Positions 1,896 to 18,844 of a stretch of 64,000 bases of DNA are shown here, piece after piece. The stretch is from NCBI RefSeq assembly GCF_019823065.1, contig NZ_CP081966.1, positions 3,007,501 through 3,071,500 on the forward strand, read 5' to 3'. The stretch is from Pseudomonas mosselii (GTDB taxonomy: Bacteria > Pseudomonadota > Gammaproteobacteria > Pseudomonadales > Pseudomonadaceae). Numbering within the stretch: the stretch's first letter is position 1; each line of letters begins with the position of its first letter. The translations under genes and the position numbers were made by a program. Below the pieces are notes generated by a model, which saw only the letters and a program-made list of their open reading frames with translations, ran no database searches and was not told the DNA's origin.

Positions 1896-3257
1896 ATGGC
1901 CGGAAACATCAAAAAACAGGTCGATAGTATCGACTACAGCACCGTCGCGGTTCCGGAAGAACACCGCATGAGCAAAGGCTCACTGACGATGGCTTGGTGG
2001 GCCATCTGCAGTGCTATGTTTTGGCTGGTGGTGTCCGCCACCCTGGCAATGAGCTTTGGTACGATGAATGCCATAATCGGCTTACTCTTGTCGGTCGTAA
2101 CTTATGCGGCCATCAACGGGGTCATTGCCCGCTACGCCATTAAGACCGGATTATCGGTCGCACTCTTCTCCCGGGTGCTATTCGGACGCGCCGGCGCAGC
2201 ACTGGCCACCCTGATTTTCTTCGCCACGGCGATCTACTACAGCGTGTTTGAAGGCTCGGTGATCGCCATTGCTATCCAACACTACGTGTCCGACATCACG
2301 CTCAATCAAGCCTACCTAATAGTGGTGCTATACAGCGTGCCACTGGTGTTCGGTAGCGTGCAGACCTGGCTGGATAAGTTCAATGGCGTGCTGCTGCCGC
2401 TCTACCTGATTGGTCTGATTGCCGTAGTAGCGATGGCCGTCGGTGAATACGGCTACAGTTCTGCCTGGTTGGAAATGGGGCCTGAGAGCGGGCCAGTAAG
2501 TAATGGCTGGTGGGACTGTTTCACCTATTTCATGGGAGTGTGGATTCTCATGATGTACACCTGGGACTACGCACGCTTCGGTCGTAAGCAGGACGCCAGC
2601 TACCACGCTAAATTTAACTTCGGCCTACCATTCTATATCTTCACCTTTCTTATTAACGGTCTGGTCGGCATCTTTCTCGCCGCCACCATTCCCACAGAGG
2701 GCGGCCTGTCTGAGGTCTCGGTGGTGCTGGCCATTGTCGAGCTGATGGGTATCTGGGGGTTGTTGTTCGTTTGGGTCAGCCAGACCCGTATCAATACCGC
2801 AAATTTCTTCATGGCCGCTAGCAACATGCATGCGTTCTTCGGCCGTTTTGGCTTGGCGGCTGTGCCTTATATGGCATGGGCCGTAGTAGTTGGCATCGTG
2901 GTCTACACAATGATGTTGCTCAATGTGTTCAGCTACATTCTGCAAGCCCTGGCATACCAGAGCATCTTTGTAGTGGCTTGGGTAGCGATCGCTTTGGCGC
3001 ATATTTTCTCGCCGAAATATACCCAGCTGTTCGAGGGCAATATTGAATTCGCTCTCGAACGAGTCAACGCCTTCAACCCGTGCGGCTTGATCGCCTGGTT
3101 CTTTGCCGCTGGCCTGGGGATAGTGCTGCTGAATTTCGGCGGAGCAACGCTGGCGACCTTCTCAGCGCCGGTGACCTTTGTCTGCGCGTTCGCCAGCTAC
3201 TGGCTGCTACTCAACAGCGCCAAACGCAGCTGGTTTGTCCGCACCAGCTGCAGCTGA
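1896..3257 (+). CDS. NCS1-family permease (cytosine/hydantoin/allantoin type)
   Basis: A 453-residue polytopic inner-membrane protein with about 12 hydrophobic segments. It belongs to the nucleobase:cation symporter-1 family, which carries cytosine, purines, hydantoins and allantoin with Na+ or H+. Family-like elements are the N-terminal cytoplasmic tail ending in EEHRMSKGSLTMAWWAICSA, the TM1-2 region with small residues, and FSRVLFGRAGAALATLIFF before TM3. The protein is followed after 147 bases by a porin and then by the hydantoinase-type lactamase genes. Hydantoin carriers such as Mhp1 are in this family, so uptake of a cyclic amide used by the downstream enzymes is a reasonable inference; the substrate itself cannot be read from sequence. 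The ATG at 1896 has a purine-rich site upstream. Confidence 0.85.
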   Translation: MAGNIKKQVDSIDYSTVAVPEEHRMSKGSLTMAWWAICSAMFWLVVSATLAMSFGTMNAIIGLLLSVVTYAAINGVIARYAIKTGLSVALFSRVLFGRAGAALATLIFFATAIYYSVFEGSVIAIAIQHYVSDITLNQAYLIVVLYSVPLVFGSVQTWLDKFNGVLLPLYLIGLIAVVAMAVGEYGYSSAWLEMGPESGPVSNGWWDCFTYFMGVWILMMYTWDYARFGRKQDASYHAKFNFGLPFYIFTFLINGLVGIFLAATIPTEGGLSEVSVVLAIVELMGIWGLLFVWVSQTRINTANFFMAASNMHAFFGRFGLAAVPYMAWAVVVGIVVYTMMLLNVFSYILQALAYQSIFVVAWVAIALAHIFSPKYTQLFEGNIEFALERVNAFNPCGLIAWFFAAGLGIVLLNFGGATLATFSAPVTFVCAFASYWLLLNSAKRSWFVRTSCS

Positions 3258-3332
3258 AACCAATATCGGCGCCCACCGGGCCGATGTATTCGGCTCCGGC
3301 AACTTGCTGCAGCTACCAAACCCGATCCAAAA

Positions 3333-3359
3333 CTAAGCCGCAACACCGCAGCGGCTTAG
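3333..3359 (+). repeat. Hairpin between permease and porin genes
   Basis: A perfect 9-bp inverted repeat (CTAAGCCGC / GCGGCTTAG) with a 9-base loop lies in the permease-porin gap. It lacks a clear T tract, so it may be an mRNA processing or stability element rather than a terminator. Confidence 0.4.
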
Positions 3360-3404
3360 TGCTGCGTAGCTGAAAAAAAGACTAACAATGCTAAGAGCCA
3401 ATTC

Positions 3405-4583
3405 ATGAAAATGATCAACCTGCACCCACAAGCAACTCTCATATTACTTCCATTGTTGGCATCGCTCGCGCTACCCGCAGGTGCGGTGGCTATCAATGAC
3501 AACTTGGACATTGGCGGCGCCGTGCGTGCGCGTATCGACTACGACCCCGACCGGGATATCGAGAAGCTGAGTTTCGATACTGCCTTTCTCACCGCTACCT
3601 ACAACTCCGATAGTTGGATCGGCGCGGCTAAATACCGTTTCTATGGCGACGCTTACCCTTTCGACTATACCGACAAGATCGGTGACATCGCCTTCGCCGA
3701 ATATGCATGGATCGGCTACAAGTTCGATGAGTCGCGTCAGATTCAGGTGGGACTAAACAAGATTCCGTTCGGCCTGCTGCCCTATGCCGGCAGCACTTTC
3801 TTCTTGACCTTGGGCAGCGTGATCGGCCTGGAAGACATTGCGAACCTTGGTGTTAAATACATCCAGCAGCAGGATGACTGGAACTTCCAACTCGCTTACT
3901 ACCTAAGCCCGGCTGATCAGGGTCAAGGTACAAGCCGCGGCGGGCGGACCTATGCAACCAGTGTTGCTACGGCAGATGACTACGTCGTCGACGGCAGCGA
4001 TAACCACGAGCGCGACATCTTAGTCGGGCGTCTGGCCCGCAACCTAAAGCTTGGGAGCTGGCAGTCGGAGATCGGCGCCTCGGCATTGACCTCGACGCTG
4101 CAGAACCAGGACAGTCGTGATAGCGGCCGCCGAAATGCCCTAGCAGTCCACTACTCGGGCAAGAATGGCCCCTGGGGCGTGCAACTGCAAGCCACTCGCC
4201 AGGACATGAGCCCGGAGAATCCCGGCAGAGACAAGCTGGTTAGCTTCGGCAGCTTCGACGGCACCTTTAACGTTGCCGCCAAGGGTAACCTCTATGTAGC
4301 CGACCTCAGCTATGACATTCCTGGCTCACTCGGGTGGCTCTCTGGTGTCAAGGTTTACGGTAACTACAGCCTGTTCGACAAGGATGAGTCCAGCTTCGAG
4401 GATTCCCAGCGCTTCATCCTTGGCACATCTTTCTCGCTGAAAGACCTATGGATCGCCGTCGAGTGGTTGCACGGCAAGCACGATCCCTACATCGGTGGCG
4501 GTAGCTACACCCAGAGCCTGGGCGCCGGCGGTAGCGAACGCTGGGAAAACCAGTTGTATACCAATATCGGTTACTACTTCTGA
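3405..4583 (+). CDS. Outer-membrane porin, beta-barrel channel
   Basis: A 392-residue exported protein. The first ~27 residues form a signal peptide (basic start, hydrophobic LILLPLLASLALPAG, cleavage near GAVA). The mature part is rich in alternating aromatic/polar beta strands and ends in YTNIGYYF, a typical terminal strand with a C-terminal phenylalanine recognised by the BAM machinery. The IPFGLLPYAG region and overall shape resemble phosphate-selective (OprO/P) or maltoporin-like porins of Pseudomonas. It lies between the NCS1 permease and the lactamase genes and ends in a strong terminator, so it probably provides outer-membrane entry for the same substrate. The specific ligand is unknown. 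Confidence 0.8.
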   Translation: MKMINLHPQATLILLPLLASLALPAGAVAINDNLDIGGAVRARIDYDPDRDIEKLSFDTAFLTATYNSDSWIGAAKYRFYGDAYPFDYTDKIGDIAFAEYAWIGYKFDESRQIQVGLNKIPFGLLPYAGSTFFLTLGSVIGLEDIANLGVKYIQQQDDWNFQLAYYLSPADQGQGTSRGGRTYATSVATADDYVVDGSDNHERDILVGRLARNLKLGSWQSEIGASALTSTLQNQDSRDSGRRNALAVHYSGKNGPWGVQLQATRQDMSPENPGRDKLVSFGSFDGTFNVAAKGNLYVADLSYDIPGSLGWLSGVKVYGNYSLFDKDESSFEDSQRFILGTSFSLKDLWIAVEWLHGKHDPYIGGGSYTQSLGAGGSERWENQLYTNIGYYF

Positions 4584-4623
4584 GGCAATAAGCGCCCCTA
4601 GCAACCACTCACGCTCCTATTTT

Positions 4624-4649
4624 CGCCAGCCATGTGCTGGCGTTTTTTT
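4624..4649 (+). terminator. Rho-independent terminator of the porin gene
   Basis: A 7-bp perfect stem (CGCCAGC / GCTGGCG) with loop CATGT is followed by seven T residues, 40 bases after the porin stop. The group IIC intron begins four bases after the T tract, which is the target preference known for this intron class. Confidence 0.9.
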
Positions 4650-4652
4650 ATG

Positions 4653-6575
4653 GTGCGCCAGGCATGGCGCGTAGCGCCGTGACTGGCGCTGTCGGGTTCA
4701 CTGTGGTGGTGAGCCTGGCGACTTGGAGGTGAAAGTCCTCTACACACCCGGCAAGGGGAAGTGTTAGCTGAAGGCAAGGGTGTCGCGGGCGACTGCGAAT
4801 CTGAAGGAAGCCCGAGACAAAATGCTGGCCTGACGAACAGGAAGCGGATGAGGCGGCGCAGCGGGGTGAGGTGGCCATAATCGCCAAAGCCCGATACTTG
4901 CACGGAACGCTGCGACGTAGATCCGACAGGCATAAGCAGGAAGGTCGCGCGAATTACCCTGGGAGATCTGTACGCTTGCCATTGTGCTACCGATTGTCGA
5001 GAGGCGACGGGATGGGCGTGCAGAAGTCAGCCGAGGCCGTAGTAAGTGGCGGTCAACCACGCCATCAAGGGCCGAACAGGTCATGCCGCCAGTAGGCGTC
5101 AGCGTCTCGTCGATAACCGAAATGCAGAAATTTCTCCAAGAGAAGACTGTCACCCCGAGTCCCGGCCAGAGGCCGAGGATGACGCCTGACAGCGCAGAGG
5201 TATCGGCGGCGTCGGTGACGTGGATGAACGCGGAGCCGGACACGCTGATGGAGCGGGTGCTTGCGCCGCTCAATCTCAAGCGTGCGTATCAGCGCGTGGT
5301 CAGCAACAAGGGGGCGCCGGGTGCCGATGGCATGACGGTCGCCGACTTGGCAGGCTACGTGAAACAGTATTGGCCCATCCTGAAGGTCAGGCTGCTGGCA
5401 GGTGAATACCATCCCCAGGCAGTGCGGGCGGTCGAAATTCCCAAACCGCAGGGCGGTATGCGGCAACTGGGCATTCCCAGTGTCGTGGATCGCCTGATCC
5501 AGCAAGCCCTGCTGCAACAGCTCACGCCGATCTTCGATCCGCTGTTCTCGGACTATAGCTACGGCTTCCGTCCGGGCAGAAGCGCTCACCAGGCTGTCGA
5601 GATGGCCCGCACCCATGTGGCGGCGGGTCATAGGTGTTGCGTGGAACTCGATCTGGAGAAGTTCTTTGATCGGGTCAACCACGACATCCTGATGTTCTGT
5701 GTTGAGCGCCATGTCGAAGACAAACAGGTGCTCAGACTCATCCGCCGTTACCTCGAAGCGGGCGTCATGTCGGGCGGGGTTGTCAGCCATCGGCAGGAGG
5801 GGGCGCCGCAAGGCGGCCCGCTTTCGCCGCTGCTGTCGAACATCCTGCTCGATGAACTCGACCGTGAGTTGGAGCGGCGAGGCCATCGCTTCGTGCGCTA
5901 TGCCGATGACGCGAACATTTATGTCCGTAGTCCGCGTGCTGGCGAACGAGTGCTGGCCAGTGTCGAGCGGTTCCTGAATCACCGTCTGAAACTGAGACTG
6001 AATCGGGACAAGAGTCGCGTGGCTGGGTCGTGGAAATGCGACTACCTGGGGTATGGGATGAGTTGGCACTCGCAGCCTAGACTGCGAGTGGCAACCATGA
6101 GCCTGCGCCGTGTGCGCGACCGTCTCAGGGAACTGCTGCGAGGGGTGCGGGGCCACAAGATGGCGAATGTCATCGAGCGGGTAAACCCGGTGCTGCGAGG
6201 CTGGGCAGGCTACTTCAAGCTCAGCCAGAGCAAGCGTCCACTGGAAGAGCTGGATGGCTGGGTCAGGCACAAACTTCGCTGTGTCATCTGGCGGCAATGG
6301 AAGCAGCCCTCTACGAGGGCGCGCAACCTGATGCGCCTGGGATTGAGCGAGGAGCGTGCCTGCAAGTCGGCCTTCAATGGCCGAGGCCCGTGGTGGAACT
6401 CAGGAGCGCCGCATATGAATCAGGCGCTGCCGAAGAAGCTATGGGACAGACTTTGACTGGTCTCGATACTGGATACGATCAATCGGCTTAACCGCATGGC
6501 CTGAACCGCCGTGTACGGAACCGTACGCACGGTGGTGTGGGAGGACGGCGGCCGTGAGGCCGCCTCCTACCCGAT
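4653..6575 (+). mobile_element. Group II intron, bacterial class C
   Basis: A 1.9-kb retroelement inserted just behind the porin terminator. The 5' boundary is the conserved GTGCG at 4653. The 3' part carries a domain V hairpin at about 6503-6536 (CCGCCGTG, then TACGG, loop AACC, GTACG, CACGGTGG). A domain VI stem (GGGAGG / CCTCCTACCC) follows and ends in CCGAT at 6575. The internal reverse transcriptase ORF lacks the DNA endonuclease domain, as usual for class C. These introns retrohome downstream of transcription terminators, and that is exactly its position. The boundaries are inferred from consensus and not from an empty site. Confidence 0.85.
5083..6456 (+). CDS. ltrA: Group II intron reverse transcriptase/maturase
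   Basis: The intron-encoded protein acts as RNA-splicing maturase and as reverse transcriptase for target-primed retrohoming. The RT core is complete, with PQGGMRQLGIPSVVDRL, the YGFRPGRSAHQA block, the QEGAPQGGPLSPLLSN motif and the catalytic RYADDANIYV (YADD box). A thumb/maturase X region (LRGWAGYFKLS) follows. The protein ends in the class C tail GPWWNSGAPHMNQALPKKLW, with no HNH endonuclease domain. The same frame is open from 4984. I place the start at the ATG at 5083 because earlier codons overlap structured intron RNA; the start is uncertain. Confidence 0.9.
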   Translation: MPPVGVSVSSITEMQKFLQEKTVTPSPGQRPRMTPDSAEVSAASVTWMNAEPDTLMERVLAPLNLKRAYQRVVSNKGAPGADGMTVADLAGYVKQYWPILKVRLLAGEYHPQAVRAVEIPKPQGGMRQLGIPSVVDRLIQQALLQQLTPIFDPLFSDYSYGFRPGRSAHQAVEMARTHVAAGHRCCVELDLEKFFDRVNHDILMFCVERHVEDKQVLRLIRRYLEAGVMSGGVVSHRQEGAPQGGPLSPLLSNILLDELDRELERRGHRFVRYADDANIYVRSPRAGERVLASVERFLNHRLKLRLNRDKSRVAGSWKCDYLGYGMSWHSQPRLRVATMSLRRVRDRLRELLRGVRGHKMANVIERVNPVLRGWAGYFKLSQSKRPLEELDGWVRHKLRCVIWRQWKQPSTRARNLMRLGLSEERACKSAFNGRGPWWNSGAPHMNQALPKKLWDRL

Positions 6576-6756
6576 CGCAGCGTTCCGGCCTCCCGGCATT
6601 AGATCTTGAGTAGATGCACCAGTAGAAACAGTTCACTTCAGGCCAAAAAACGGTGCGCTTGAAGACAAGCCAGCCGCTAGGCCCGCGCGTAGCTTAGCGA
6701 TGTGGGCAAGACATCCGTCACGCCTCCCCAGACAAAAACAAGATTTGTGGTGACCC

Positions 6757-8502
6757 ATGAACACAGTAGACCCGATCACCCTGGCAGTCGTGCGCGGTGC
6801 GCTCGAAACAGCCCAGCGAGAAATGACCCTGACGCTGGAAAAGACCAGTCGCTCGAGCGTGTTCAACCTCGCCCACGACTATTCCAACGCACTCTTCGAT
6901 CACCTCCCGGAAATGATCCTGCAAGGCCAGGACATTCCTATTCATCTCGGTTCGCTTATCCCAGCGATGAAATGCGTTGCTGGCTTCTTCGGTGATGAGA
7001 TTGCCGAGGGCGATGTTATTTATCATAACGATCCAGCCTACATGGGCAGTCATATCCTCGACTGCTGCATGTACAAACCGGTGTTCTATAAGGGCGAGCT
7101 GGTGTTCTGGACGGTCTGCAAGGGCCACCTGACCGATATTGGCGGCCCGGTACCGGCCGGCTACAACCCGGACGCAAAAGAAATCTACGCAGAGGGCCTG
7201 CGCATCCCGCCTGTCAAGTTGTGGGCCCAGGGCCAGCGCCGGGAAGACGTAATCAACCTGCTGCTGACCAACATGCGCGCCCGCGCCTATCAAGAAGGCG
7301 ATCTGAATGCCCAGTACGGTGCTTGCAGCGTGGGCGAGCGTCACCTGATCGAGTTGCTCGATCGCTATGGCGTCGACCAGGTCCGAGCGTGCATTACCGA
7401 GCTGAAAGATATGGCAGACCGTCATATGCGCGCATTGTTGCGTGATGTGCCAGACGGTTTCTACAGCGGCACTGCCATTCTCGAAGACTCCGGTCATGGT
7501 CTGGGAGAATTGTCGATCACTGCCCAGGTGGAAATTCGCGGCGACGAGGCGCACGTTCTGATAGAGAGCCCGCCGCAGGTGCCTTACTTCATCAACTCCT
7601 ACGCGGGCAATTCGATCTCCGGGGTTTACCTCGGACTGATGATGTTCGCCCAGGTGCCACCGCCCTACAATGAAGGCCTCTATCGCTGCGTGAGTGTAGA
7701 CCTTGGCCCGTCCGGTACTCTGTGCAACGCCCAGGAGCCGGCACCGCACGTCAACTGCACCACTACTCCGATGGAAACCCTCGCCGATGCCGTGCGTCTG
7801 GCCCTTGAACAGGCGGCTCCGGAGCGTGTGACCGCCTCCTGGGGGCATGCCAGCGGGATCAATATCGCTGGGCACGACCCACGCAACAACAACGATGAAT
7901 ATGTGACCATGGTGCTGGCCTCGGTCATCTCCGGCGCTGGCGCTAACAAGGCTATGGATGGTTGGCCTGCTTGCGGCCCGCTGTGCTGCTTCGGCGCGCT
8001 GATGTCCGGCGATATCGAACTGCTTGAGTACTCCTATCCGGTACTGATACACCGCTACAGCCTGATGACCGACAGTGGTGGCGCCGGTGAATTCCGCGGT
8101 GGCTCTGGTACTCGCCTGGAGCTCGAGCCGCTGAAGCACGCCATGACCGTGGTCGGTTTCGGTGAGGGCCGGCAGCTGCCTACCGCCGGTGCGGCAGGGG
8201 CGAAGAATGTTCTGCTCGAGCCCAAGCTCGGCCGCTTGATCCATAGACATGTCGACGGTGAGGAAGACCATTACATCCAGAACACTCTGCTGACCGCACA
8301 ACCAGGTGAGCGCGTAATCAACGTCAACCCGGGCGGTGGTGGCTATGGCGACCCACTACGTCGTCCGCTGGCCACGGTTCTAGCCGATGTGCGCAACGGC
8401 TTGGTCTCGATTGACGGCGCGCGCCTTGAATACGGCGTAGTGATTGACGGCAACGGCCAACTCGATGAAGCCGCAACCCACGCACACCGAGCCGCGCACT
8501 GA
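6757..8502 (+). CDS. hyuB: Hydantoinase B / oxoprolinase-type lactamase, beta subunit (OplB/CapB-like)
   Basis: A full-length 581-residue HyuB-family subunit. Family blocks seen are PEMILQGQDIPIHLGSL, the metal-site region DVIYHNDPAYMGSHILD, GHLTDIGGPVPAGY, the GAGEFRGGSGTRLE segment and the glycine-rich end NPGGGGYGDPLRR. With the HyuA subunit it makes an ATP-dependent enzyme that opens cyclic amides. Known members act on N-methylhydantoin, 5-oxoproline, delta-valerolactam (OplBA of P. putida) and caprolactam (CapAB of P. jessenii). HyuA follows after 35 bases and an AraC regulator after that. The transaminase, semialdehyde dehydrogenase and glutarate genes downstream favour valerolactam over 5-oxoproline; this is inference. 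The group II intron lies immediately upstream. Confidence 0.88.
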   Translation: MNTVDPITLAVVRGALETAQREMTLTLEKTSRSSVFNLAHDYSNALFDHLPEMILQGQDIPIHLGSLIPAMKCVAGFFGDEIAEGDVIYHNDPAYMGSHILDCCMYKPVFYKGELVFWTVCKGHLTDIGGPVPAGYNPDAKEIYAEGLRIPPVKLWAQGQRREDVINLLLTNMRARAYQEGDLNAQYGACSVGERHLIELLDRYGVDQVRACITELKDMADRHMRALLRDVPDGFYSGTAILEDSGHGLGELSITAQVEIRGDEAHVLIESPPQVPYFINSYAGNSISGVYLGLMMFAQVPPPYNEGLYRCVSVDLGPSGTLCNAQEPAPHVNCTTTPMETLADAVRLALEQAAPERVTASWGHASGINIAGHDPRNNNDEYVTMVLASVISGAGANKAMDGWPACGPLCCFGALMSGDIELLEYSYPVLIHRYSLMTDSGGAGEFRGGSGTRLELEPLKHAMTVVGFGEGRQLPTAGAAGAKNVLLEPKLGRLIHRHVDGEEDHYIQNTLLTAQPGERVINVNPGGGGYGDPLRRPLATVLADVRNGLVSIDGARLEYGVVIDGNGQLDEAATHAHRAAH

Positions 8503-8537
8503 GCACAGCCCCTTTGAGCAATGCAGAGAATTCGAAA

Positions 8538-10628
8538 ATGAGCAAACAACAATATCGCCTGGGCATCGATGCCGGCGGCACCTTCACTGATTTCATCCTC
8601 GCCGACCATCAGGGCAACGTGCAGTTGTTCAAGGCGCCGTCCACCCCACATGACGGCACCCTGGCCATACGCAACGGTCTGGCGCAAATCGCCGATGCCC
8701 TCGGCCGTACACCAGCCGAGATCATTGCCGACTGCGATCTGTGCATCAACGGGACGACTGTGGCGCTCAACGCACTGATCGAAAAGACCGGGGTCAAGGT
8801 GGGCCTGCTGTGTACCGATGGCCATGAAGACAGCCTGGAAATTCGCCTTGGCCACAAAGAAGATGGCCATCGCTATGACGCCACTTATCCACCGGCGCAT
8901 ATGTTAGTGCCGCGCCACCTGCGCCGTCCAATCGGCGGGCGTATTATCAGTGACGGCAGCGAGTTCAGCCCGCTAGACGAGGCGGCGATTCATGCCGCCA
9001 TCGACTACTTCCGCGAACAACAGGTGCAGGCGGTGGCGATCTCCTTCGTCTGGTCGGTGCGCAACCCTAGTCACGAGCAGCGCGCTATGGCTATGGTGCG
9101 TGCGGCTTTACCTGACGTATTTGTCTGCAGCGGCCACGAGGTGTTCCCGCAGATTCGCGAATACACACGCACCTCGACAACCGTGGTCAACGCCTACCTT
9201 AGCCCAGTGATGGGTCGTTATATCGAACGCATCGACGCGCTGTTCGAGGAGCTGGGCGCGCAGCAGCCTACCCGCTATTTCCAGTCCAACGGAGGTCTGG
9301 CTCCTGGCGTGGTAATGCGTGAGCGGGCGGTCAACGCGATCAACTCCGGTCCGGCATCTGCCCCGCAAGCCGGCTTGTGCGTGGCCCAGCCATTCGGTAT
9401 CGACAACGTAATCACCGTCGATATGGGTGGTACCTCGTTCGACATCACTCTTAGCAAAGGCGGTCGCACCAACTTCAGCAAAGACAGCGACTTCCTCCGT
9501 TACCGTATCGGCGTGCCAATGATTCAGGTGGAAACCCTTGGCGCCGGCGGTGGCTCGATCGCCCACTTTGACGACTTCGGCATGCTCCAGGTCGGTCCAC
9601 GCAGTGCCGGGGCTAACCCCGGGCCTGTGTGTTATGGAAAGGGTGGGGTCGAGCCGACTGTAACCGATGCTAACCTGGCGCTCGGTTATCTGGCTGATGG
9701 TGCACTGCTCGGTGGCAGCATCCGTCTAAATCGACAAGCCGCGATCGATGCGATCCGCAGTAAAATTGCCGAACCGCTGGGTATCAGTGTCGAGCGCGCG
9801 GCCGTCGGTATCATTACCCTGGTTAACCTGAGCATGGTTAGTGGTATCCGCCGCGTGTCCATTGAGCGTGGTTATGATCCCCGTGACTTCGCCCTGATCG
9901 GTGCCGGTGGTGCAGCGGGCATGCACGTGATGCGACTAGCTGAGGAAATCGGCAGCAAGGTTGTGCTGATTCCCAAGGTGGCTTCGGGGCTGTGCGCCTT
10001 CGGCCAGATTCTCTCTGACATCCGCTATGATCAGCTGACTACTTTGCCGATGCGTTTGGATGACGAGTTCGTCGATTTGGAGCAACTAAACCAGGCCCTG
10101 CAGCAGTTACGCGAGCGTGGTATGACGAACCTGCGAGACGATGGTTTCGGTGGTGACAATCGTATTGAATGCCAGTACAGCCTGGAGATTCGTTACCTCG
10201 GACAGATCCACGAGTGCAGCGTCGAACTGAGCTGCGACCGGCTCGACCGTAGCAGCCTGGCGGCCCTGCGCGAATCCTTCCACCAGCGGCACAAGGCGCT
10301 GTTTTCCTTCAGTGAGCCTAACAGCCCGGTCGAACTAGTTAATCTAGAGTGCTCGGTGATCGCGCGGTTACAGCGTCCACCAATGCCTGAACTTGCAACC
10401 CCGCTCAAGGCAACGGCCGCGATTCCGGCTGGTCATCGTCCGATGCTGTTCAATGCGCAAGACGATTGGCAGGACACGCCTGTGTACAACGGCGACCGCA
10501 TAGAAGTAGGGCAGATTATTCAAGGTCCCTGTGTGATTGAGGAAGCGACCACAAACATCGTTGTTCCACCGGGCTGGCGGGTCAGTCTGGATCCCTCGGC
10601 CACATATGAACTGACTCCCGGTCATTGA
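8538..10628 (+). CDS. hyuA: Hydantoinase A / oxoprolinase-type lactamase, ATP-binding alpha subunit (OplA/CapA-like)
   Basis: A 696-residue partner of the preceding HyuB. It has the actin-fold ATPase signatures of the family: N-terminal LGIDAGGTFTDFILAD, INSGPASAPQAG, the second phosphate loop VDMGGTSFDITL, GAGGGSIA, SAGANPGPVCYG and TDANLALGYL. It couples ATP hydrolysis, through an enzyme-bound phosphorylated intermediate, to lactam ring opening by HyuB in the cytoplasm. The frame is open from a TTG at 8514. The ATG at 8538 is preferred because the protein then begins MSKQQYRLGIDAGG, as is normal for the family. A hairpin follows at 10664-10693. Substrate choice is inferred from neighbours only. 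Confidence 0.88.
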   Translation: MSKQQYRLGIDAGGTFTDFILADHQGNVQLFKAPSTPHDGTLAIRNGLAQIADALGRTPAEIIADCDLCINGTTVALNALIEKTGVKVGLLCTDGHEDSLEIRLGHKEDGHRYDATYPPAHMLVPRHLRRPIGGRIISDGSEFSPLDEAAIHAAIDYFREQQVQAVAISFVWSVRNPSHEQRAMAMVRAALPDVFVCSGHEVFPQIREYTRTSTTVVNAYLSPVMGRYIERIDALFEELGAQQPTRYFQSNGGLAPGVVMRERAVNAINSGPASAPQAGLCVAQPFGIDNVITVDMGGTSFDITLSKGGRTNFSKDSDFLRYRIGVPMIQVETLGAGGGSIAHFDDFGMLQVGPRSAGANPGPVCYGKGGVEPTVTDANLALGYLADGALLGGSIRLNRQAAIDAIRSKIAEPLGISVERAAVGIITLVNLSMVSGIRRVSIERGYDPRDFALIGAGGAAGMHVMRLAEEIGSKVVLIPKVASGLCAFGQILSDIRYDQLTTLPMRLDDEFVDLEQLNQALQQLRERGMTNLRDDGFGGDNRIECQYSLEIRYLGQIHECSVELSCDRLDRSSLAALRESFHQRHKALFSFSEPNSPVELVNLECSVIARLQRPPMPELATPLKATAAIPAGHRPMLFNAQDDWQDTPVYNGDRIEVGQIIQGPCVIEEATTNIVVPPGWRVSLDPSATYELTPGH

Positions 10629-10663
10629 CCGTCAGGGATTTTTAACAAAGGATTGTGTAACAA

Positions 10664-10693: not shown

Positions 10694-10725
10694 CCCTCAT
10701 AATAACTACAAATTGAGGACCTTTC

Positions 10726-12062: not shown

Positions 12063-12782
12063 CTATCCCATGATTTCAGGGGCGGACTGGGATGCTCTCA
12101 GGTTGCTGTTGCGCATGATCCCTTCGATGATCGGTACTGGTGTCATCAGATGAGCCTGCATCATGGCGCTTGCTCGCGTTGCGTCACGGGCAAGGATAGC
12201 TTCTACCAGTTCGCTGTGCTCTTGACGTTTCAGGGACAAGGCCTCCTCGGATAGCACCGTGCGCCGCAGCCACAGCTGGCGATAGCGCTCGGCCTGATCG
12301 AACAGATAGGCGCGCGCCTGCAGCAGGTGTCTAGACCCACAGCCGGAGGCTATAGCTGTATGGAAGGCCTTGTGTCGGGCATCCCATATTTCCAGCATCT
12401 GCTCCTGGGTCTTGACCTCCATTACCTTGGCCAATGTATGCGAATAGGCCAACACCTGGGCCTCCCAGGCGTCATCGCCGCGTTCGATGGCGAGCTTAAG
12501 TACCAGCGCTTCGAGATTGGCCCGTGCGTCATAGATGTCCTGCATTTCGCTCAGCGACATAGGAGCGACGCGGTAGCCACGCTGACTGATAGCTACTACC
12601 AGATTTTCCGCAATCAGATGCGATAGCGCTTCACGCAGAGGGCCTACGCCTAGGTCGTAGCGCTCCTTAAGCGCAGTCATTCGCAGTTTTTCTCCGGGCT
12701 TGAACATGCCCTGAATTATGTCCCGCTTGAGCCACTCATAGCCGCTGACTGCTGAGTTTTGGCGGGGGGCGAGCGTATCCAT
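12063..12782 (-). CDS. csiR: GntR-family regulator, FadR/FCD subgroup (CsiR-like)
   Basis: A 239-residue repressor-type protein. It has an N-terminal winged helix (IIQGMFKPGEKLRMTALKER, then LGVGPLREALSHLIAENLV) and a C-terminal all-helical FCD ligand domain containing DARANLEALVLKLAI, ARHKAFHTAIASGCGSRHLL and the HSELVEAILARDATRASAMMQAHL end. It is divergent from csiD, as csiR is in part of the Enterobacteria and Pseudomonas. Known CsiR represses glutarate hydroxylase genes and is released by glutarate or 2-hydroxyglutarate. The start ATG has GAGGAG 8-9 bases upstream. A perfect inverted repeat at 12865-12902 in the shared promoter region is its likely operator. Confidence 0.85.
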   Translation of the reverse strand: MDTLAPRQNSAVSGYEWLKRDIIQGMFKPGEKLRMTALKERYDLGVGPLREALSHLIAENLVVAISQRGYRVAPMSLSEMQDIYDARANLEALVLKLAIERGDDAWEAQVLAYSHTLAKVMEVKTQEQMLEIWDARHKAFHTAIASGCGSRHLLQARAYLFDQAERYRQLWLRRTVLSEEALSLKRQEHSELVEAILARDATRASAMMQAHLMTPVPIIEGIMRNSNLRASQSAPEIMG

Positions 12783-12864
12783 AAACCATGCTCCTCAACG
12801 GGTTTTATCCATCATACGCAACTGCAGAAATATTTACTAAGTGGAGATGCAGTTGCCGAGTGTC

Positions 12865-12902
12865 GCTATTTTATAAAAGCGTAGACATTTTTATAAAATA
12901 GC
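12865..12902. promoter_or_regulatory. Candidate CsiR operator, 14-bp inverted repeat
   Basis: Perfect arms GCTATTTTATAAAA (12865-12878) and TTTTATAAAATAGC (12889-12902) with a 10-base spacer lie between the divergent csiR and csiD genes, 73 bases before the csiD ATG. The position suits control of csiD and autoregulation of csiR. Binding is inferred. Confidence 0.55.
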
Positions 12903-12974
12903 TATATTTTTAGTCCGGCTGTTCTGGTAAATCTCGGGGCGGCGTACAGACAATTTTTTCGTCAGGACTCTGCC

Positions 12975-13952
12975 ATGAATGCCTTTACCCAGCTCAAAGA
13001 TCTTGTGATGCCGCTACCGACCGCCGTTAAGGGGTTTTCTCTTTCACCCTCCGCTCAGTCGCCCCGTTTGTTCGAGCTGACCTTCACTAAGGCGACGATA
13101 GAGGCTTTCTGTGTAGCAGTGGCCGAGTGGCCGGTGCAGGCGCTGGAATACAAGTCCTTCTTGCGATTTCGCTTCGCCAAAATTCTTGACGATCTCTGCG
13201 GTAACAGCCTGCGCCCGGTGCTACTCAACGCCCTAATGGATCGTGCCACCGGAGGGCTGTTAATCAAGCAGGAGGCCCTGAATGATGTGGCACAAGCTGA
13301 TGATATGGTCAAATTCTCGACTGCTGTGGCCCACCTGCTGGGGCGGTCGAACTTTGATGCGATGAGCGGCCAGTTCTACGCACGCTTCGTGGTCGAGAAC
13401 GTCGATAATTCGGACAGCTACCTGCGCCAACCTCACCGGGTAATGGAGTTGCACAACGATGGTACTTTCGTCGATCAGATCACCGACTACGTGCTGATGA
13501 TGAAGATCGATGAGCAGAATATCGAAGGTGGCAACTCGCTGATCCTGCATCTGGACGACTGGGAGGATCGCCATGCTTTCTTCCATCATCCGCTAGCACG
13601 GCGCGTCATGCGCTGGACCGCGCCGCCGAGTAAAAGGGTCGATACGGACGTGTTCCATTCGATCTTTGATGTCGACGCCGAAGGGCGGCCGACTATTCGC
13701 TATATCGATCAATTTGTTCAGCCCAAAGACTTCGACGAGGGCAACTGGCTGACCGACCTGTCTATCTCCCTGGAGGGCAGTAAACAGAAGCTTTCCGTGC
13801 CGGTGCCAGTTGGCTGCTTCCTGCTGATTAATAACCTGTATTGGCTGCATGGCCGCGATCGTTTCACCCCTCACCCTGGGCTGCGCCGTGAACTGATGCG
13901 CCAGCGCGGTTACTTCAGTTACCCCAAACTCGGCCATCAGCAAGGCCAATAA
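12975..13952 (+). CDS. csiD: Glutarate 2-hydroxylase, Fe(II)/2-oxoglutarate dioxygenase
   Basis: Also named glaH. It converts glutarate, O2 and 2-oxoglutarate to L-2-hydroxyglutarate, succinate and CO2. The length is 325 residues, identical to E. coli CsiD. The iron ligands fall at the known positions: His160 and Asp162 in [11 protein letters not shown], and the distal His292 in [12 protein letters not shown]. Arg and hydrophobic residues for 2-oxoglutarate binding lie in [13 protein letters not shown]. The gene starts 192 bases from divergent csiR and is followed at once by lhgO, which oxidises its product. With the transaminase and dehydrogenase further on, it gives a CoA-free route for C5 dicarboxylate. 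Confidence 0.95.
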
Positions 13953-14036
13953 TTGCCATTAATTGAACAGGGGCTGCGCGGTTTAGCCCTTGTCGTTTGT
14001 CCACGGGGCAAAACAGATCGAGTAGAGGTGATAGCG

Positions 14037-15266
14037 GTGTACGATTTTGTGATCATCGGGGGCGGCATTATCGGCATGTCGACTGCCATGCAATTAATCA
14101 AGGCCTACCCAGAGTCGAAAATCTTGTTGCTCGAGAAAGAGTCCGGGCCAGCTAAGCATCAGACGGGGCACAATAGCGGGGTCATCCACGCCGGCGTCTA
14201 CTACACGCCGGGTAGCTTGAAGGCGAAGTTCTGCCTGGAAGGCAACCGTGCTACCAAATCGTTCTGTAACGAGCACGGCATTATCTACGATGAGTGCGGT
14301 AAGTTGCTGGTCGCCACCAATGAGGTGGAAATGCAGCGCATGCGCGCGCTTTGGGAGCGCACTGCAGCCAATGGTCTGGAGCGCGAGTGGCTGTCTGCGG
14401 AGCAACTGAAGGAACGCGAACCGAACATCACCGGAATCGGCGGGATCTTCGTGCCCTCCAGTGGTATCGTTAACTATGCCGAGGTCACCGCTGCCATGGC
14501 TCGCGAGTTCCAGAGGCACGGTGGCGAGATTCGCTACGACAGCGAAGTCATCGGCCTGGAAGAGCGCGCCACGGAGATGCGGGTTAAAACCCAGCATGAA
14601 GAAGTCATTGCACGCTTTTTGGTGACCTGCTCGGGTCTGATGGCCGACCGCATTGTATGTCTACTGGGCTTAGATCCTGGCTTTAGCATTTGCCCGTTCC
14701 GTGGCGAATACTATTTGCTGCCTGAGCAGCACAACCGGATCGTCAATCACCTGATCTACCCGATTCCCGATCCCTCCATGCCGTTCCTCGGCGTGCACCT
14801 GACGCGAATGATCGACGGCAGTGTGACAGTCGGTCCCAATGCTGTGCTGGCACTCAAGCGTGAGGGCTATCGCAAGCGTGACATATCTTTGTCCGACACG
14901 TTCGCAATGCTCACCAATCCGGGCATTCTTAAAGTGCTCAAGGACAATCTGCGGCCCGGCCTGATCGAGATGAAAAACTCGCTGTTCAAGCGTGGTTATC
15001 TACAGCAAGTACGCAAGTACTGCCCCAGCTTAACGCTGCAGGATCTCAAGCCTTACCCGGCCGGCGTCCGCGCCCAAGCGGTTTCAGCGGACGGCAAGTT
15101 GATCGAGGACTTCCTGTTCCGCAATACCCGCCGTAGCGTCAACGTCTGCAATGCACCATCGCCGGCGGCTACCTCTGCAATTCCCATAGGCGCCTACATC
15201 ATCAAGCAGATTGATGCACAGCTGCAGGGGCTACCCAGGTTTGTAAAAAACCAACATCCCGCATGA
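14037..15266 (+). CDS. lhgO: L-2-hydroxyglutarate oxidase/dehydrogenase, FAD-dependent
   Basis: A 409-residue FAD enzyme of the DAO family. It oxidises L-2-hydroxyglutarate to 2-oxoglutarate, probably passing electrons to the membrane quinone pool. The dinucleotide motif YDFVIIGGGIIGMSTAMQL stands at the N-terminus. It is followed by HQTGHNSGVIHAGVYY, which is diagnostic of LhgO, and CPFRGEYYLLP. The open frame reaches back to 13953, overlapping the csiD end, but GTG at 14037 is chosen because GAGG lies 8 bases upstream and family members begin at this point. It regenerates the 2-oxoglutarate consumed by CsiD, so the pair belong to one operon. Confidence 0.93.
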   Translation: MYDFVIIGGGIIGMSTAMQLIKAYPESKILLLEKESGPAKHQTGHNSGVIHAGVYYTPGSLKAKFCLEGNRATKSFCNEHGIIYDECGKLLVATNEVEMQRMRALWERTAANGLEREWLSAEQLKEREPNITGIGGIFVPSSGIVNYAEVTAAMAREFQRHGGEIRYDSEVIGLEERATEMRVKTQHEEVIARFLVTCSGLMADRIVCLLGLDPGFSICPFRGEYYLLPEQHNRIVNHLIYPIPDPSMPFLGVHLTRMIDGSVTVGPNAVLALKREGYRKRDISLSDTFAMLTNPGILKVLKDNLRPGLIEMKNSLFKRGYLQQVRKYCPSLTLQDLKPYPAGVRAQAVSADGKLIEDFLFRNTRRSVNVCNAPSPAATSAIPIGAYIIKQIDAQLQGLPRFVKNQHPA

Positions 15267-15504
15267 GGCAGTGCGGGGCGAATTCGGCAGTGCACTGGAA
15301 CGAACAAGACTGTGCGCAAGACGACAAGCCCCGCACCGGCTCAGTCTAATAGGCTATCGGCTAGTGCACTTAACGTCCCCGAGCCAAGTCATCGTTACTG
15401 AACTCGTTACCGAATTGAAGTGTGTGATTGTGATCAAAAGCCGGATGCCTACTTATAAGGCTACTCCCAGAAACCATGCTTGTTAGTCATATTGAGAGCG
15501 CCCC

Positions 15505-16872
15505 ATGAACCAGTCAGTATCCTCGCTGCCAGAAAAAGACATTCAGTATCAACTGCACCCCTACACCAATGCTCGCCTTCATCAGGAGCTTGGCCCGCTG
15601 ATCATCGAGCGCGGGGAGGGTATCTATGTTTATGACGATCAGGGCAAGGGTTATATCGAGGCGATGGCTGGGTTGTGGAGCGCCGCGCTTGGCTTTAGCA
15701 ATCAACGTCTGATCAAGGCAGCTGAGCAGCAATTCAACACCCTGCCGTTTTATCACCTGTTCAGTCACAAATCGCATCGCCCGAGTATCGAGTTAGCCGA
15801 AAAGCTGATCGAGATGGCGCCGGTGCCTATGAGTAAGGTGTTCTTCACCAACTCCGGTTCCGAGGCTAACGATACTGTAGTGAAGATGGTCTGGTACCTC
15901 AATAACGCTCTAGGCAAACCAGCCAAGAAGAAGTTCATCAGTCGGGTCAACGGCTACCACGGCATCACCGTCGCCAGCGCAAGCTTGACTGGCCTTCCAG
16001 GCAACCAGCGCGGTTTCGACCTGCCGCTTCCAGGCTTCCTGCATGTCGGCTGCCCGCACCATTATCGTTTCGCCCTTGCCGGTGAAAGTGAAGAGCATTT
16101 CGCTGACCGCCTTGCCGTCGAGCTCGAGCAGAAGATTCTCGCCGAAGGCCCGGAGACTATCGCAGCGTTCATTGGCGAGCCATTGATGGGCGCTGGCGGT
16201 GTCATAGTGCCGCCTCGTACCTACTGGGAGAAGATCCAGAAAGTTTGCCGTAAGTACGACATCCTGGTTATCGCCGATGAGGTAATCTGTGGATTTGGGC
16301 GTACCGGGCAGATGTTTGGCAGCCAGACCTTTGGTATCCAGCCGGACATCATGGTGTTATCCAAGCAACTGTCATCTTCTTATCAGCCGATAGCGGCGAT
16401 TCTGATCAATGCCCCAGTATTTGAGGGCATCGCTGATCAGAGCCAAGCGCTTGGCGCGCTTGGGCATGGGTTCACCGGCAGCGGTCATCCGGTAGCTACT
16501 GCCGTGGCCTTGGAGAACCTGAAGATTATTGAAGAGGAGAGCCTGGTCGAGCATGCGGCGCAAATGGGCCAGTTGTTGCGCAGCGGCCTACAGCATTTCA
16601 TCGATCATCCCTTGGTGGGCGAAATTCGCGGTTGTGGACTGATCGCTGCGGTAGAACTAGTTGGCGATCGCGTGAGCAAGGCGCCGTATCAGGCGCTAGG
16701 CACCCTCGGACGCTACATGGCCGGCAGAGCCCAGGAACACGGCATGATTACTCGCGCCATGGGTGATGCCGTGGCCTTCTGCCCGCCGTTAATCGTCAAC
16801 GAACAGGAAGTCGGAATGATTGTAGAGCGCTTTGCCAGGGCGCTGGACGACACCACTCAGTGGGTTGGTTAG
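15505..16872 (+). CDS. Class III omega-aminotransferase
   Basis: A 455-residue PLP enzyme of fold type I. Visible features are FFTNSGSEANDTVVKM (phosphate-binding region), GYHGITVASASLTG, the aspartate of VIADEVICGFGRTG (Asp258) and the Schiff-base Lys287 in MVLSKQLSSSYQPIAA. It resembles pyruvate-dependent omega-transaminases such as SpuC and the 6-aminohexanoate transaminase found beside caprolactamase in P. jessenii, more than the shorter canonical DavT/GabT. In this context it should convert the omega-amino acid from lactam opening (5-aminovalerate or 6-aminohexanoate) to the semialdehyde. It lies 238 bases after lhgO and 109 before the dehydrogenase. Confidence 0.87.
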   Translation: MNQSVSSLPEKDIQYQLHPYTNARLHQELGPLIIERGEGIYVYDDQGKGYIEAMAGLWSAALGFSNQRLIKAAEQQFNTLPFYHLFSHKSHRPSIELAEKLIEMAPVPMSKVFFTNSGSEANDTVVKMVWYLNNALGKPAKKKFISRVNGYHGITVASASLTGLPGNQRGFDLPLPGFLHVGCPHHYRFALAGESEEHFADRLAVELEQKILAEGPETIAAFIGEPLMGAGGVIVPPRTYWEKIQKVCRKYDILVIADEVICGFGRTGQMFGSQTFGIQPDIMVLSKQLSSSYQPIAAILINAPVFEGIADQSQALGALGHGFTGSGHPVATAVALENLKIIEEESLVEHAAQMGQLLRSGLQHFIDHPLVGEIRGCGLIAAVELVGDRVSKAPYQALGTLGRYMAGRAQEHGMITRAMGDAVAFCPPLIVNEQEVGMIVERFARALDDTTQWVG

Positions 16873-16981
16873 ATCAATCCGGGGGAGGAGAGAATTGCTT
16901 TTATGTGGCTCTCCTCGGCTTAAATTCATAGCTTGGAAAATAGCTGAGCAGCACTGAATGCAGTCTGCGAAGGAGCACGCC

Positions 16982-18433
16982 ATGCAACTCAAAGATACCC
17001 AATTGTTCCGCCAACAGGCTTATATCGACGGAACCTGGTTGGACGCGGACAGCGGCCAGACCATTCAGGTCACCAATCCGGCCACCAACGAAGTTATGGG
17101 TAGTGTGCCGAAGATGGGGGCAGCGGAAACCCGTCGAGCCATCGAAGCAGCAGATCATGCCCTGCCAGCCTGGCGTGCACTGACAGCTAAAGACCGCGCC
17201 AACAAACTGCGCCGCTGGTTTGAACTGATGATTGAAAACCAGGACGACCTGGGTCGTCTCATGACCATGGAGCAAGGTAAGCCACTTGCCGAAGCCAAGG
17301 GCGAAATTGCTTTCGCGGCGTCCTTCCTTGAGTGGTTCGCCGAAGAAGCCAAGCGCGTGTATGGCGACGTAATTCCCGGCCACCAACCGGACAAACGCCT
17401 GATCGTGATCAAACAGCCCATCGGCGTAACGGCAGCGATTACACCCTGGAACTTCCCGGCAGCCATGATCACCCGTAAAGCCGGCCCGGCCCTGGCCGCC
17501 GGTTGTACCATGGTGCTCAAGCCAGCGTCGCAAACGCCTTATTCGGCGCTGGCGTTGGCAGTGCTGGCCGAGCGTGCCGGGATCCCCAAAGGCGTGTTCA
17601 GTGTAATCACTGGCAGTGCTGGCGAAGTCGGCAGCGAACTGACTAGCAACCCGATCGTGCGCAAGTTGAGCTTTACTGGCTCCACCGAAATTGGTCGCCA
17701 GCTAATGGCCGAATGTGCCAAGGACATTAAAAAGGTGTCGCTAGAACTGGGCGGAAACGCGCCGTTCATCGTATTCGATGATGCCGACCTTGATAAGGCA
17801 GTGGAAGGCGCACTGATCTCCAAATACCGCAACAATGGCCAGACCTGCGTGTGCGCCAACCGCCTGTATATCCAAGACGGCGTATACGATGCCTTCGCCG
17901 AGAAGCTGAAAATCGCGGTAGCTAAGTTGCAGATTGGTAACGGTTTGGACGAAGGTATCACCACCGGCCCTCTGATCGATGCCAAGGCGGTGGCCAAGGT
18001 CCAGGAGCACATTGCCGACGCCATTAGCAAGGGTGCCAAGCTACTCGCTGGTGGTAAGCCGCACGCCCTCGGTGGCACTTTCTTCGAGCCGAGCATCCTC
18101 ATTGACGTACCGAATAACGCCGCCGTAGCCAAGGAAGAAACCTTCGGTCCGCTGGCGCCGCTGTTCCGTTTTAAGGACGAGGCCGACGTGATCGCGATGT
18201 CCAATGACACCGAGTTCGGCCTGGCCTCGTACTTCTATGCCCGCGATATGGGGCGCGTGTTCCGTGTGGCCGAAGCCCTAGAATACGGTATGGTCGGCGT
18301 CAATACTGGGCTGATCTCCAATGAAGTTGCGCCTTTCGGTGGTATCAAGGCATCCGGCCTGGGTCGCGAAGGATCCAAGTACGGCATTGAGGATTACCTG
18401 GAGATCAAGTACCTCTGCCTGGGTGGTATCTAA
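16982..18433 (+). CDS. gabD: Glutarate/succinate semialdehyde dehydrogenase (GabD/DavD type)
   Basis: A 483-residue NAD(P)-dependent aldehyde dehydrogenase. The general base Glu255 (VSLELGGNAPF) and nucleophile Cys289 (NNGQTCVCANR) are present. So are the cofactor motifs TPWNFPAAMITRK and FTGSTEIGRQL and the C-terminal GLGREGSKYGIEDYLEIKY, typical of GabD. The frame extends to an ATG at 16958, but the ATG at 16982 has AAGGAG seven bases upstream and gives the usual length. It should oxidise glutarate semialdehyde from the transaminase to glutarate, which feeds CsiD. Succinate semialdehyde is a possible second substrate. Confidence 0.93.
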   Translation: MQLKDTQLFRQQAYIDGTWLDADSGQTIQVTNPATNEVMGSVPKMGAAETRRAIEAADHALPAWRALTAKDRANKLRRWFELMIENQDDLGRLMTMEQGKPLAEAKGEIAFAASFLEWFAEEAKRVYGDVIPGHQPDKRLIVIKQPIGVTAAITPWNFPAAMITRKAGPALAAGCTMVLKPASQTPYSALALAVLAERAGIPKGVFSVITGSAGEVGSELTSNPIVRKLSFTGSTEIGRQLMAECAKDIKKVSLELGGNAPFIVFDDADLDKAVEGALISKYRNNGQTCVCANRLYIQDGVYDAFAEKLKIAVAKLQIGNGLDEGITTGPLIDAKAVAKVQEHIADAISKGAKLLAGGKPHALGGTFFEPSILIDVPNNAAVAKEETFGPLAPLFRFKDEADVIAMSNDTEFGLASYFYARDMGRVFRVAEALEYGMVGVNTGLISNEVAPFGGIKASGLGREGSKYGIEDYLEIKYLCLGGI

Positions 18434-18684
18434 GAGCCCGGCGAATAGGCACGTGATTCTCGCTCAGGCCCCACTTGGCGAGCATCATTAATCTTGGCCC
18501 GGTCTATAAAACCCGGGCATGCTACATCGGTTGTGGCGCAGACAAAGATTGACGCGGGCTATTTCTACGTCACCGTCTACTTCTCACGGCTGTTGCCGCG
18601 CAACCAGAGTCTGGAGGCCTGTATCCGCGTCGACAGCGCCCCCTGTTCGAGCTAGGTGCCTAACATTTCTAACGATTGAGCGTT

Positions 18685-18719
18685 GCGCGGAGTCCTACAC
18701 CTAGGCTCTGCGCCTTTTT
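18685..18719 (+). terminator. Probable terminator of the lactam/glutarate operon
   Basis: An 8-bp stem GCGCGGAG / CTCTGCGC (one wobble) is followed by CTTTTTA, about 250 bases after the dehydrogenase stop. Beyond it only gene scraps are found. Confidence 0.55.
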
Positions 18720-18844
18720 AATCCCGCCGCGCTAGATTAGGCGAAGTAATGCTGCCTTCACAGCCAGTCCTGCTGGTATGGATAAAGGTGATATCCATCA
18801 CCTATGCCATGTTAGGGGCGACGGTGAACTCTCTCTAAGATGGT

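Follow-up and report, generated by a model that had tools for sequence, protein, structure and literature searches.

A caprolactam gene block of Pseudomonas mosselii and the 66-kb TniA/TniB/TniQ-type transposon that probably carries it to chromosomal dif

Introduction

The closest described relative of the locus considered here is the caprolactam cluster of Pseudomonas jessenii GO3, whose cap genes and csiR-csiD-lhgO arrangement have been in print since 2018 (PMC6061476). Contig 5 of GO3 (ORF4265-4282) encodes a dehydrogenase, a transaminase, LhgO, CsiD, CsiR, CapA and CapB and, farther on, a CoA-transferase, a thiolase, a 3-hydroxyacyl-CoA dehydrogenase, an enoyl-CoA hydratase, an IclR regulator and an acyl-CoA dehydrogenase for adipate (PMC6061476). 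The oplBA lactamase of P. putida KT2440 is orthologous, with 80-86% identity (PMC8453981). In Escherichia coli the genes csiD-lhgO-gabD-gabT-gabP-csiR form one cluster (PMC6061476), and the CAP and SAL/CAP plasmids of Pseudomonas link the degradation of caprolactam with that of salicylate (PMC10053300). This article describes a related gene block of Pseudomonas mosselii, found in a stretch of 64,000 nucleotides (contig NZ_CP081966.1, positions 3,007,501 to 3,071,500, forward strand) that is called the window below, and the transposon in which the block appears to lie. Positions are those of the window, with minus numbers for bases before its start; handles beginning with L or G denote loci and genomes in this analysis.

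With a probability of about 0.85, the block is the caprolactam core of a 66.4-kb transposon of the TniA/TniB/TniQ type, which inserts 33-42 bp from chromosomal dif, and it is perhaps also active on C5 compounds. The lactam genes are a known cluster, serving caprolactam first, and their biochemistry is already in print; the transposon and its dif targeting are the new part, within the literature searched. Among the matches listed from openly licensed PMC papers there was no report of a caprolactam transposon or island, nor of a dif-directed Tni transposon (PMC8373256, PMC8649781 and PMC11472951 included).

Lactam opening and the route to adipate

The genes named in the original prediction, which had read positions 1896..18720 as a self-contained lactam-to-2-oxoglutarate island, are all intact open reading frames (ORFs) at the positions given there, according to the ORF list of the window, and their family assignments hold, the permease match being weak. 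The gene capB (hyuB; 6757..8502, plus strand) encodes the beta (Zn) subunit of caprolactamase, scoring 1150.7 bits with NF050157 (cut-off 1000), and is identical to chain B of PDB 6YRA in 581 of 581 residues. The alpha (ATP) subunit is encoded by capA (hyuA; 8514..10628, plus strand; NF050156, 1189.3 bits, cut-off 1000) and shares 693 of 696 residues (9-704) with chain A. The 6-aminohexanoate (omega) transaminase (15505..16872, plus strand; PRK06105, 777.5 bits, cut-off 517) equals PDB 6G4B in 455 of 455 residues. As the PDB names are generic, we take 6YRA to be the P. jessenii caprolactamase and 6G4B its 6-aminohexanoate transaminase. This assignment is supported by the NCBIfam names, by the structure paper (PMC8453981) and by the pathway paper (PMC6061476). 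Three primers of the latter match the window, as does the gene part of a fourth (ATrev). Its table lists eight contig-5 genes whose lengths match those in the window to one base, that of the dehydrogenase only when counted from an internal ATG at 16982.

The ATP-site residues D11 and D295 of CapA and the Zn-site residues D41, H99 and H124 of CapB are present. Position 101 of CapB is a leucine, with an aspartate at 102; PMC8453981 writes D101, though the solved chain equals the window sequence. A two-subunit, ATP-dependent lactamase had been predicted here rather than merely a 5-oxoprolinase, and it is borne out: a 5-oxoprolinase or hydantoinase can be ruled out, as both subunits score above the caprolactamase cut-offs and are identical or nearly identical to the solved enzyme.

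In the proposed pathway, caprolactam would be activated by CapA with ATP and opened by CapB to 6-aminohexanoate, which would then be transaminated; others have shown lactam opening and transamination on identical proteins (CapA at 693/696). The product would be oxidised to adipate, as has been proposed from induction and homology (PMC6061476). The candidate enzyme is a gabD-type semialdehyde dehydrogenase (16958..18433, plus strand; NF008415, 1018 bits, cut-off 828; best solved relative 3JZ4), which would act on 6-oxohexanoate or glutarate semialdehyde. Directly upstream of the window in the host chromosome lies an adipate cluster (L142 12357-19483), whose 3-oxoadipyl-CoA thiolase scores above its cut-off, with ETF genes next to it. 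The ETF alpha subunit gene (305..1249, plus strand; NCBIfam ETF models matched, none above cut-off) closes this adipate beta-oxidation/ETF cluster, and the remaining genes precede the window (L142 12357-19483 and on). Through the cluster, adipate would pass via 3-oxoadipyl-CoA to acetyl-CoA and succinyl-CoA. Since the adipate cluster adjoins the lactam block, the whole route from caprolactam through adipate to central metabolism would be encoded in one stretch; its steps past 6-oxohexanoate are predicted here, and induction and homology are the grounds on which PMC6061476 likewise proposes them.

The identity of the enzymes with those of the P. jessenii pathway makes epsilon-caprolactam the demonstrated substrate, and adipate rather than 2-oxoglutarate the end product. 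The predicted lactam-to-2-oxoglutarate route thus survives as a plausible C5 branch through GlaH and LhgO, but not as the demonstrated function, which concerns a C6 lactam. The predicted grouping of all these genes in one block is present but is already known as a cluster, since the cap genes with csiR-csiD-lhgO were described in GO3 (PMC6061476).

Ends, genes and copies of the transposon

The element measures 66,377 bp, from -30302 to 36074. GC content is 0.53-0.60 in the block against 0.65-0.70 beyond 40 kb, in keeping with the lower-GC block predicted at 1896..18720. The foreign DNA extends past those limits, however: it begins 30,302 bases before the window, ends at base 36,074 and has within it a GC-rich stretch at about 20-32 kb. 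All the steps named in the prediction do lie in one transferable block, but the vehicle is the larger, 66-kb transposon with the adipate cluster upstream.

The terminal inverted repeats are imperfect (TGTGATGCCCGATCAAAAA and TGTGACGCCTGATGAAAAA), 16 of the 19 terminal bases agreeing; the right one occupies 36056..36074 (plus strand), and the left one begins at G000:C1:2977198 (window -30302). A 5-bp target duplication, GGTGA, follows the right end (36075..36079, plus strand), its second copy standing immediately 5' of the left end. Duplications of 5 bp are perfect in all four genomes from which both ends were recovered: GGTGA in the host, ACTGA in G032, ATGCT in P. chengduensis 402 and GCGTA in the Pseudomonas metagenome-assembled genome (MAG) ALOHA A2.5_105. 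In P. marincola JCM 14761 the right end is followed by GCTGA. Inverted-repeat ends together with 5-bp duplications point to transposition by 5-bp staggered joining, and, as judged from these ends, the mobile unit is the 66-kb transposon rather than the 17-kb block.

Genes of the TniA (DDE, Mu-type C-terminus), TniB (ATPase) and TniQ type stand at the left end, where PF09299 and PF05621 score above their cut-offs, and rve (27.2 bits, cut-off 32.6) and TniQ PF06527 (24.5 bits, cut-off 27) just below them. No tniR serine resolvase was found among the element ORFs scanned, some ORFs of the element lying outside the scan. The right end carries a XerC-like tyrosine recombinase (33098..34402, minus strand; TIGR02224 with E=9e-15, below cut-off, and no Pfam match) and a second tyrosine-recombinase-like protein (34668..35855, minus strand) with no family match, in which the usual catalytic residues seem, by eye, to be missing. 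The second contig of the host, about 65 kb long, also encodes a more distant TniA relative (G000:C2:36088-37521; 33% identity), and G032 has a chromosomal TniA relative of equal score.

The original prediction had proposed a search of other genomes for the syntenic block; the element was recovered in five Pseudomonas genomes, the host included. The alignment with G032 extends from -30305 to 36187 at 99.9-100% (99.92% over 60.3 kb plus 100% over 6.2 kb), with one extra piece of 2.4 kb in G032. The P. marincola copy is 99.99% identical over 31 kb, and that of P. chengduensis 402 is 99.98% identical over 21.7 kb. In P. chengduensis both ends lie on one contig and the length is again 66,377 bp, the base-by-base comparison covering the end pieces and the 21.7 kb. 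At the rpoB locus the five hosts share only 83.6-89.7% identity (10 pairs), and the near-identity of the element against this background indicates recent movement between species. With one element, a pathway for an industrial compound would thus have passed between species, complete and nearly identical. The host genome holds a single hyuA match (E up to 0.001) and a single glaH match (E up to 1e-60).

Insertion beside dif

In relatives, many of the short matches to the right flank turned out to consist of the dif motif, and the following result grew out of that observation. The chromosomal dif core lies at 36114..36135 (minus strand); it is the sole match in the genome, and none occurred in 100 shuffles of the window. 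Each of the five element carriers has exactly one dif core (up to 2 mismatches allowed; a reversed control gave none), and in all five the gap between the right end and dif is short (39, 42, 41, 33 and 42 bp) and the orientation constant. The pattern of an element end plus dif was found in 5 of 398 Pseudomonas genomes, namely three element carriers together with G240 and G407, and in these last two recombinases related to the right-end ones of the element adjoin dif. A related recombinase lies within 1.5 kb of dif (E below 1e-20) in 5 of the 31 genomes scanned (G085, G407, G088, G178 and G240); in G085 the protein beside dif is 59% identical to the second right-end recombinase-like protein.

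TniA relatives were sought in 199 genomes, of which 38 were positive; TniA and dif were placed in 37, with G063 left out. The two share a contig in 19 genomes, being at most 200 kb apart in 11 and more than 1 Mb apart in 8. When G000 and G032 are set aside, 9 of 17 are within 200 kb; by our own estimate, chance would give roughly one in fifteen (200 kb either side in about 6 Mb). G024 is counted by its weaker second TniA, the one on the dif contig. Little weight falls on three of the near genomes: G024 and G070, whose TniA matches do not surpass those of the far genomes, and G184, in which the distance is 183 kb. The side of the insertion alone also says little: dif lies 3' of tniA in all 11 near cases, and in 6 of the 8 far ones too.

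Transposons of the Tn5053 family are res-site hunters. By a comparable preference, TniQ, the recombinases of the element, or both would probably sense the Xer-dif complex and so steer the choice of target. If correct, this suggests a simple and testable targeting rule for a transposon landing beside dif.

The two tyrosine-recombinase-like genes at the right end and the closeness of dif might also suggest that the island was integrated at dif by XerCD, like dif-using phages and islands, or that it is an integrative conjugative element rather than a transposon. A dif-bounded, Xer-integrated structure has two dif-like sites; all five genomes have a single dif, which is 33-42 bp off. The exact 5-bp duplications and the inverted repeats at both ends are typical of TniA-type transposition. 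An origin by Xer integration or conjugative-element integration is therefore highly improbable, although no search aimed at conjugation genes was made, and transposition is retained here as the mechanism.

The glutarate genes and C5 lactams

Between the AraC-type regulator gene and the transaminase gene lie csiR, for a GntR-family repressor (12063..12782, minus strand; NF008576, 380.9 bits, cut-off 218), glaH (csiD), for glutarate 2-hydroxylase (12975..13952, plus strand; NF002814, 496 bits, cut-off 333), and lhgO, for L-2-hydroxyglutarate oxidase (13953..15266, plus strand; NF008726, 604 bits, cut-off 299). The residues H160, D162 and H292 of GlaH, predicted to be intact, are all present, and its solved relatives include 2R6S and 6GPE. 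The true start of LhgO is probably near 14040, as the family match begins at residue 30. The same enzymes would probably also take the C5 series (valerolactam and 5-aminovalerate), and the glutarate formed from it would be cleared by GlaH and LhgO to 2-oxoglutarate. With both proteins intact, such a C5 route is plausible.

Linkage of glaH and lactamase genes was followed in 80 named capB-homologue loci, the best 80 of 164 found, with fetched flanks of 10 kb or less. The gene glaH occurs in the flank of at least 17 of the 80, three of them element copies; the figure is a lower bound, because flanks of about 10 kb on both sides were complete in only 60 loci. Six arrangements are seen, four in Pseudomonas, one in Halomonas and one in Marinobacterium. 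glaH is downstream and co-directional in L050-L053 and L129, upstream and co-directional in L054, L055 and L077, upstream and opposed in L072-L074, L081 and L084, and downstream and opposed in L078 and L089; L090 of Halomonas and L094 of Marinobacterium show two further arrangements. Among 398 sampled Pseudomonas genomes (two draws treated as one set, since their handles agree), GlaH is encoded in 22 of 32 lactamase-bearing genomes against 24 of 366 lactamase-free ones (Fisher p 3e-16, or 7e-14 without the three element copies; thresholds E up to 1e-100 for the lactamase and E up to 1e-60 for glaH).

The recurrent linkage, and the lactam preference of OplAB, a close homologue from P. putida that in vitro converted up to 80% of the six-membered lactam and at most 25% of caprolactam (PMC11033972), both favour the C5 route. 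They could be taken to mean that the block is mainly a pathway from delta-valerolactam or 5-aminovalerate to 2-oxoglutarate, with caprolactam as a side substrate. The co-occurrence is inflated by kinship among the hosts, however, which makes it less independent than the p-value implies, and in only 10 of the 22 genomes do the genes lie within 10 kb of each other, being farther apart or on different contigs in the others. Moreover, the proteins belong to a caprolactam degrader, and an adipate cluster comes with them in the element; among the 80 loci its thiolase and CoA-transferase (100%) were found in two element copies only, though others may be missed with flanks of 10 kb or less. A mainly C5 function is thus unlikely for this block, which we continue to regard as a caprolactam core. 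C5 lactams or 5-aminovalerate were probably the substrates for which the family of lactamase clusters arose, and the copy in the window serves caprolactam and perhaps both C5 and C6 compounds. The element makes the real purpose of such clusters, C5 or C6 lactams, directly testable.

Other genes of the core and the group II intron

The core would comprise an NCS1-like permease, a porin, capB-capA and an AraC-family regulator, followed by csiR-glaH-lhgO-transaminase-gabD. The permease (1896..3257, plus strand) is a candidate for lactam uptake; it matches TIGR00800 weakly (19.6 bits, cut-off 353) and no Pfam family, and a homologue is present in the flank of 47 of the 80 lactamase loci. The outer-membrane porin (3405..4583, plus strand; Pfam Porin_O_P, 24.4 bits) has homologues at 20 of the 80. 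The AraC-family protein (10726..11685, plus strand; Pfam AraC_binding_2 and HTH_18) is a candidate lactam sensor similar to OplR, which we take to be the AraC-type regulator of P. putida KT2440 oplBA; in 75 of the 80 loci an AraC homologue follows capA within 1.5 kb.

The original prediction made no mention of csiR (12063-12782, minus strand) or of a complete group II intron inside the stretch. The intron occupies about 4653..6575 (plus strand), with matches to Rfam RF02001, RF01998 and RF00029 within 4783-6575, and contains a maturase ORF (4984..6456, plus strand) that scores above the cut-off of TIGR04416. It lies between the porin gene and hyuB, inserted directly behind a terminator-like hairpin of the porin gene, in which T residues follow the hairpin. 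Class C group II introns insert behind hairpins of the terminator type. The intron is lacking in L052 and L053, which are otherwise collinear at 86-90%, and these intron-free loci locate the join to within a few bases, the ends being judged by eye. Every element copy compared across this stretch (L050, L051, L129 and G032) has the intron. A copy 99.5% identical is found on the P. aeruginosa plasmid NZ_ON248939.1.

Second cargo and plasmid links

A second catabolic cargo of the element is salicylate 1-monooxygenase (29598..30899, plus strand; TIGR03219, 759 bits, cut-off 446), and an aromatic-acid transporter is carried as well; caprolactam and salicylate genes are thereby joined in one element. 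At 24912-27315 lies an efflux-type pair (FUSC-like and HlyD-like), possibly for aromatic acids, and the left part of the element encodes a LigB-type ring-opening dioxygenase (L142 4691-5632) together with LysR regulators and an SDR enzyme. A run of short repeats at the start of a LivM-like transporter gene (19423-19500; SATATATATA / SNSNSNSN) is possibly phase-variable.

The 517-kb conjugative plasmid NZ_CP156902.1 of P. kurunegalensis carries the adipate-ETF stretch at 363240-372962 (L168/L169; 9.7 kb at 99.99%), together with 993 bp of sequence from the right-end recombinase. As no capBA match was found within the 70 kb fetched, the plasmid does not hold a full copy of the element, and the adipate module has the look of an end piece that can be exchanged. 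Annotated genes for an alcohol dehydrogenase, an FAD oxidoreductase and a hydrolase lie near this module on the plasmid, perhaps for a cyclohexanol-type route. The adipate cluster is unsupported as a general neighbour of capBA: the two loci with its thiolase and CoA-transferase (L050 and L129) are element copies, and five other loci have one or two weaker matches to the cluster (32-56%); in the element, part of the cluster is more than 10 kb from capBA, beyond the fetched flanks.

A megablast search with the 17-kb block matched 314 of 72,556 plasmid records, none covering 80% of it, and the 20 matches listed all consist of the intron alone. For the lactamase protein, no match in the plasmid records reaches 80% identity (the best among the matches listed being 72.5%), and the left 10 kb of the element had no megablast match in plasmid records; the plasmid search may omit records very near the genome of the window. 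By combining these observations, it is possible to imagine a distinct lineage of large TniABQ elements with paired tyrosine-recombinase-like genes, which would hunt the dif regions of Pseudomonas by sensing Xer-bound dif. It might recently have been spreading a complete degradation package for the nylon-6 monomer, with salicylate and probably C5 lactam genes, between species. It might also stand behind the plasmids for caprolactam, which have been known since 1984, and behind the SAL/CAP plasmids found later. We regard the chances of this wider picture as evenly balanced.

Weighing the evidence

Several points weigh against the reading of the block as the caprolactam core of a dif-directed transposon. 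Growth, induction and transposition in the host are predictions. The MAG ALOHA A2.5_105 copy has its ends on different contigs; in P. marincola the left end was not recovered, and the right end has about 1.1 kb extra, the last 0.6 kb at 96.5%. A complete empty site is lacking from the 95 relatives searched, in which the joined flanks of 600 bases had no full-length match: G000 was matched by its two separate flanks, G007 by bases 1-264 at 85%, and G024 by short pieces of both flanks (53 and 105 bases) 147 kb apart. With 8 of 19 TniA relatives more than 1 Mb from dif, proximity to dif is no trait of the whole TniA family, and among the 11 near genomes the orientation of dif to tniA is that of the window in 5 and the opposite in 6. 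By word count, transpos-, horizontal, intron, AraC, recombinase and salicylate are all absent from the main text of PMC6061476, and its ORF numbering has no space for an AraC gene between CsiR and CapA, so that the presence of the element in GO3 is only presumed.

Finally, LhgO, CsiD and CsiR showed no significant upregulation on caprolactam in P. jessenii (PMC6061476), and the glutarate genes may therefore be passengers. According to this proposal, csiR-glaH-lhgO was brought along with the transaminase-gabD pair from an operon like csiD-lhgO-gabD of E. coli, and the operon logic indeed matches the csiD-lhgO-gabD-gabT-gabP-csiR cluster. On the other hand, the reading frames are intact, the proteins are 100% identical among the copies compared, and the linkage of glaH with the lactamase recurs in other arrangements. 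Passenger status is accordingly somewhat unlikely, and the glutarate genes are treated here as possible working parts of the caprolactam core.

Comparison with known systems

The locus resembles the GO3 cluster in its enzymes (identical, or 693/696), in its gene order as far as described, and in having the adipate cluster on the same contig as the lactam genes. With P. putida KT2440 oplBA it has in common an orthologous lactamase and an AraC-type regulator. It differs from the P. putida and P. monteilii loci L070, L080 and L083, KT2440 not being among them, in having glaH and lhgO beside the lactamase; neither gene was found in the fetched flanks of those three. As in the csiD cluster of E. 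coli, csiR, glaH, lhgO and gabD are grouped, but a caprolactam-type (6G4B-type) transaminase replaces gabT and a lactamase module adjoins; inspection by eye of the ORFs of at least 150 amino acids in 1896-18433 showed none that is gabP-like. Caprolactam and salicylate degradation travel together on the CAP and SAL/CAP plasmids too (PMC10053300), whereas here both pathways lie on one chromosomal transposon. With the Tn5053/Tn402 family and the Tn7-like transposons the element shares TniA/TniB/TniQ-type genes, a 5-bp duplication, TGT...ACA ends and insertion beside a recombination site. It differs from them in its size of 66 kb, its catabolic cargo, the tyrosine-recombinase-like genes at its far end, and its target beside the chromosomal dif.

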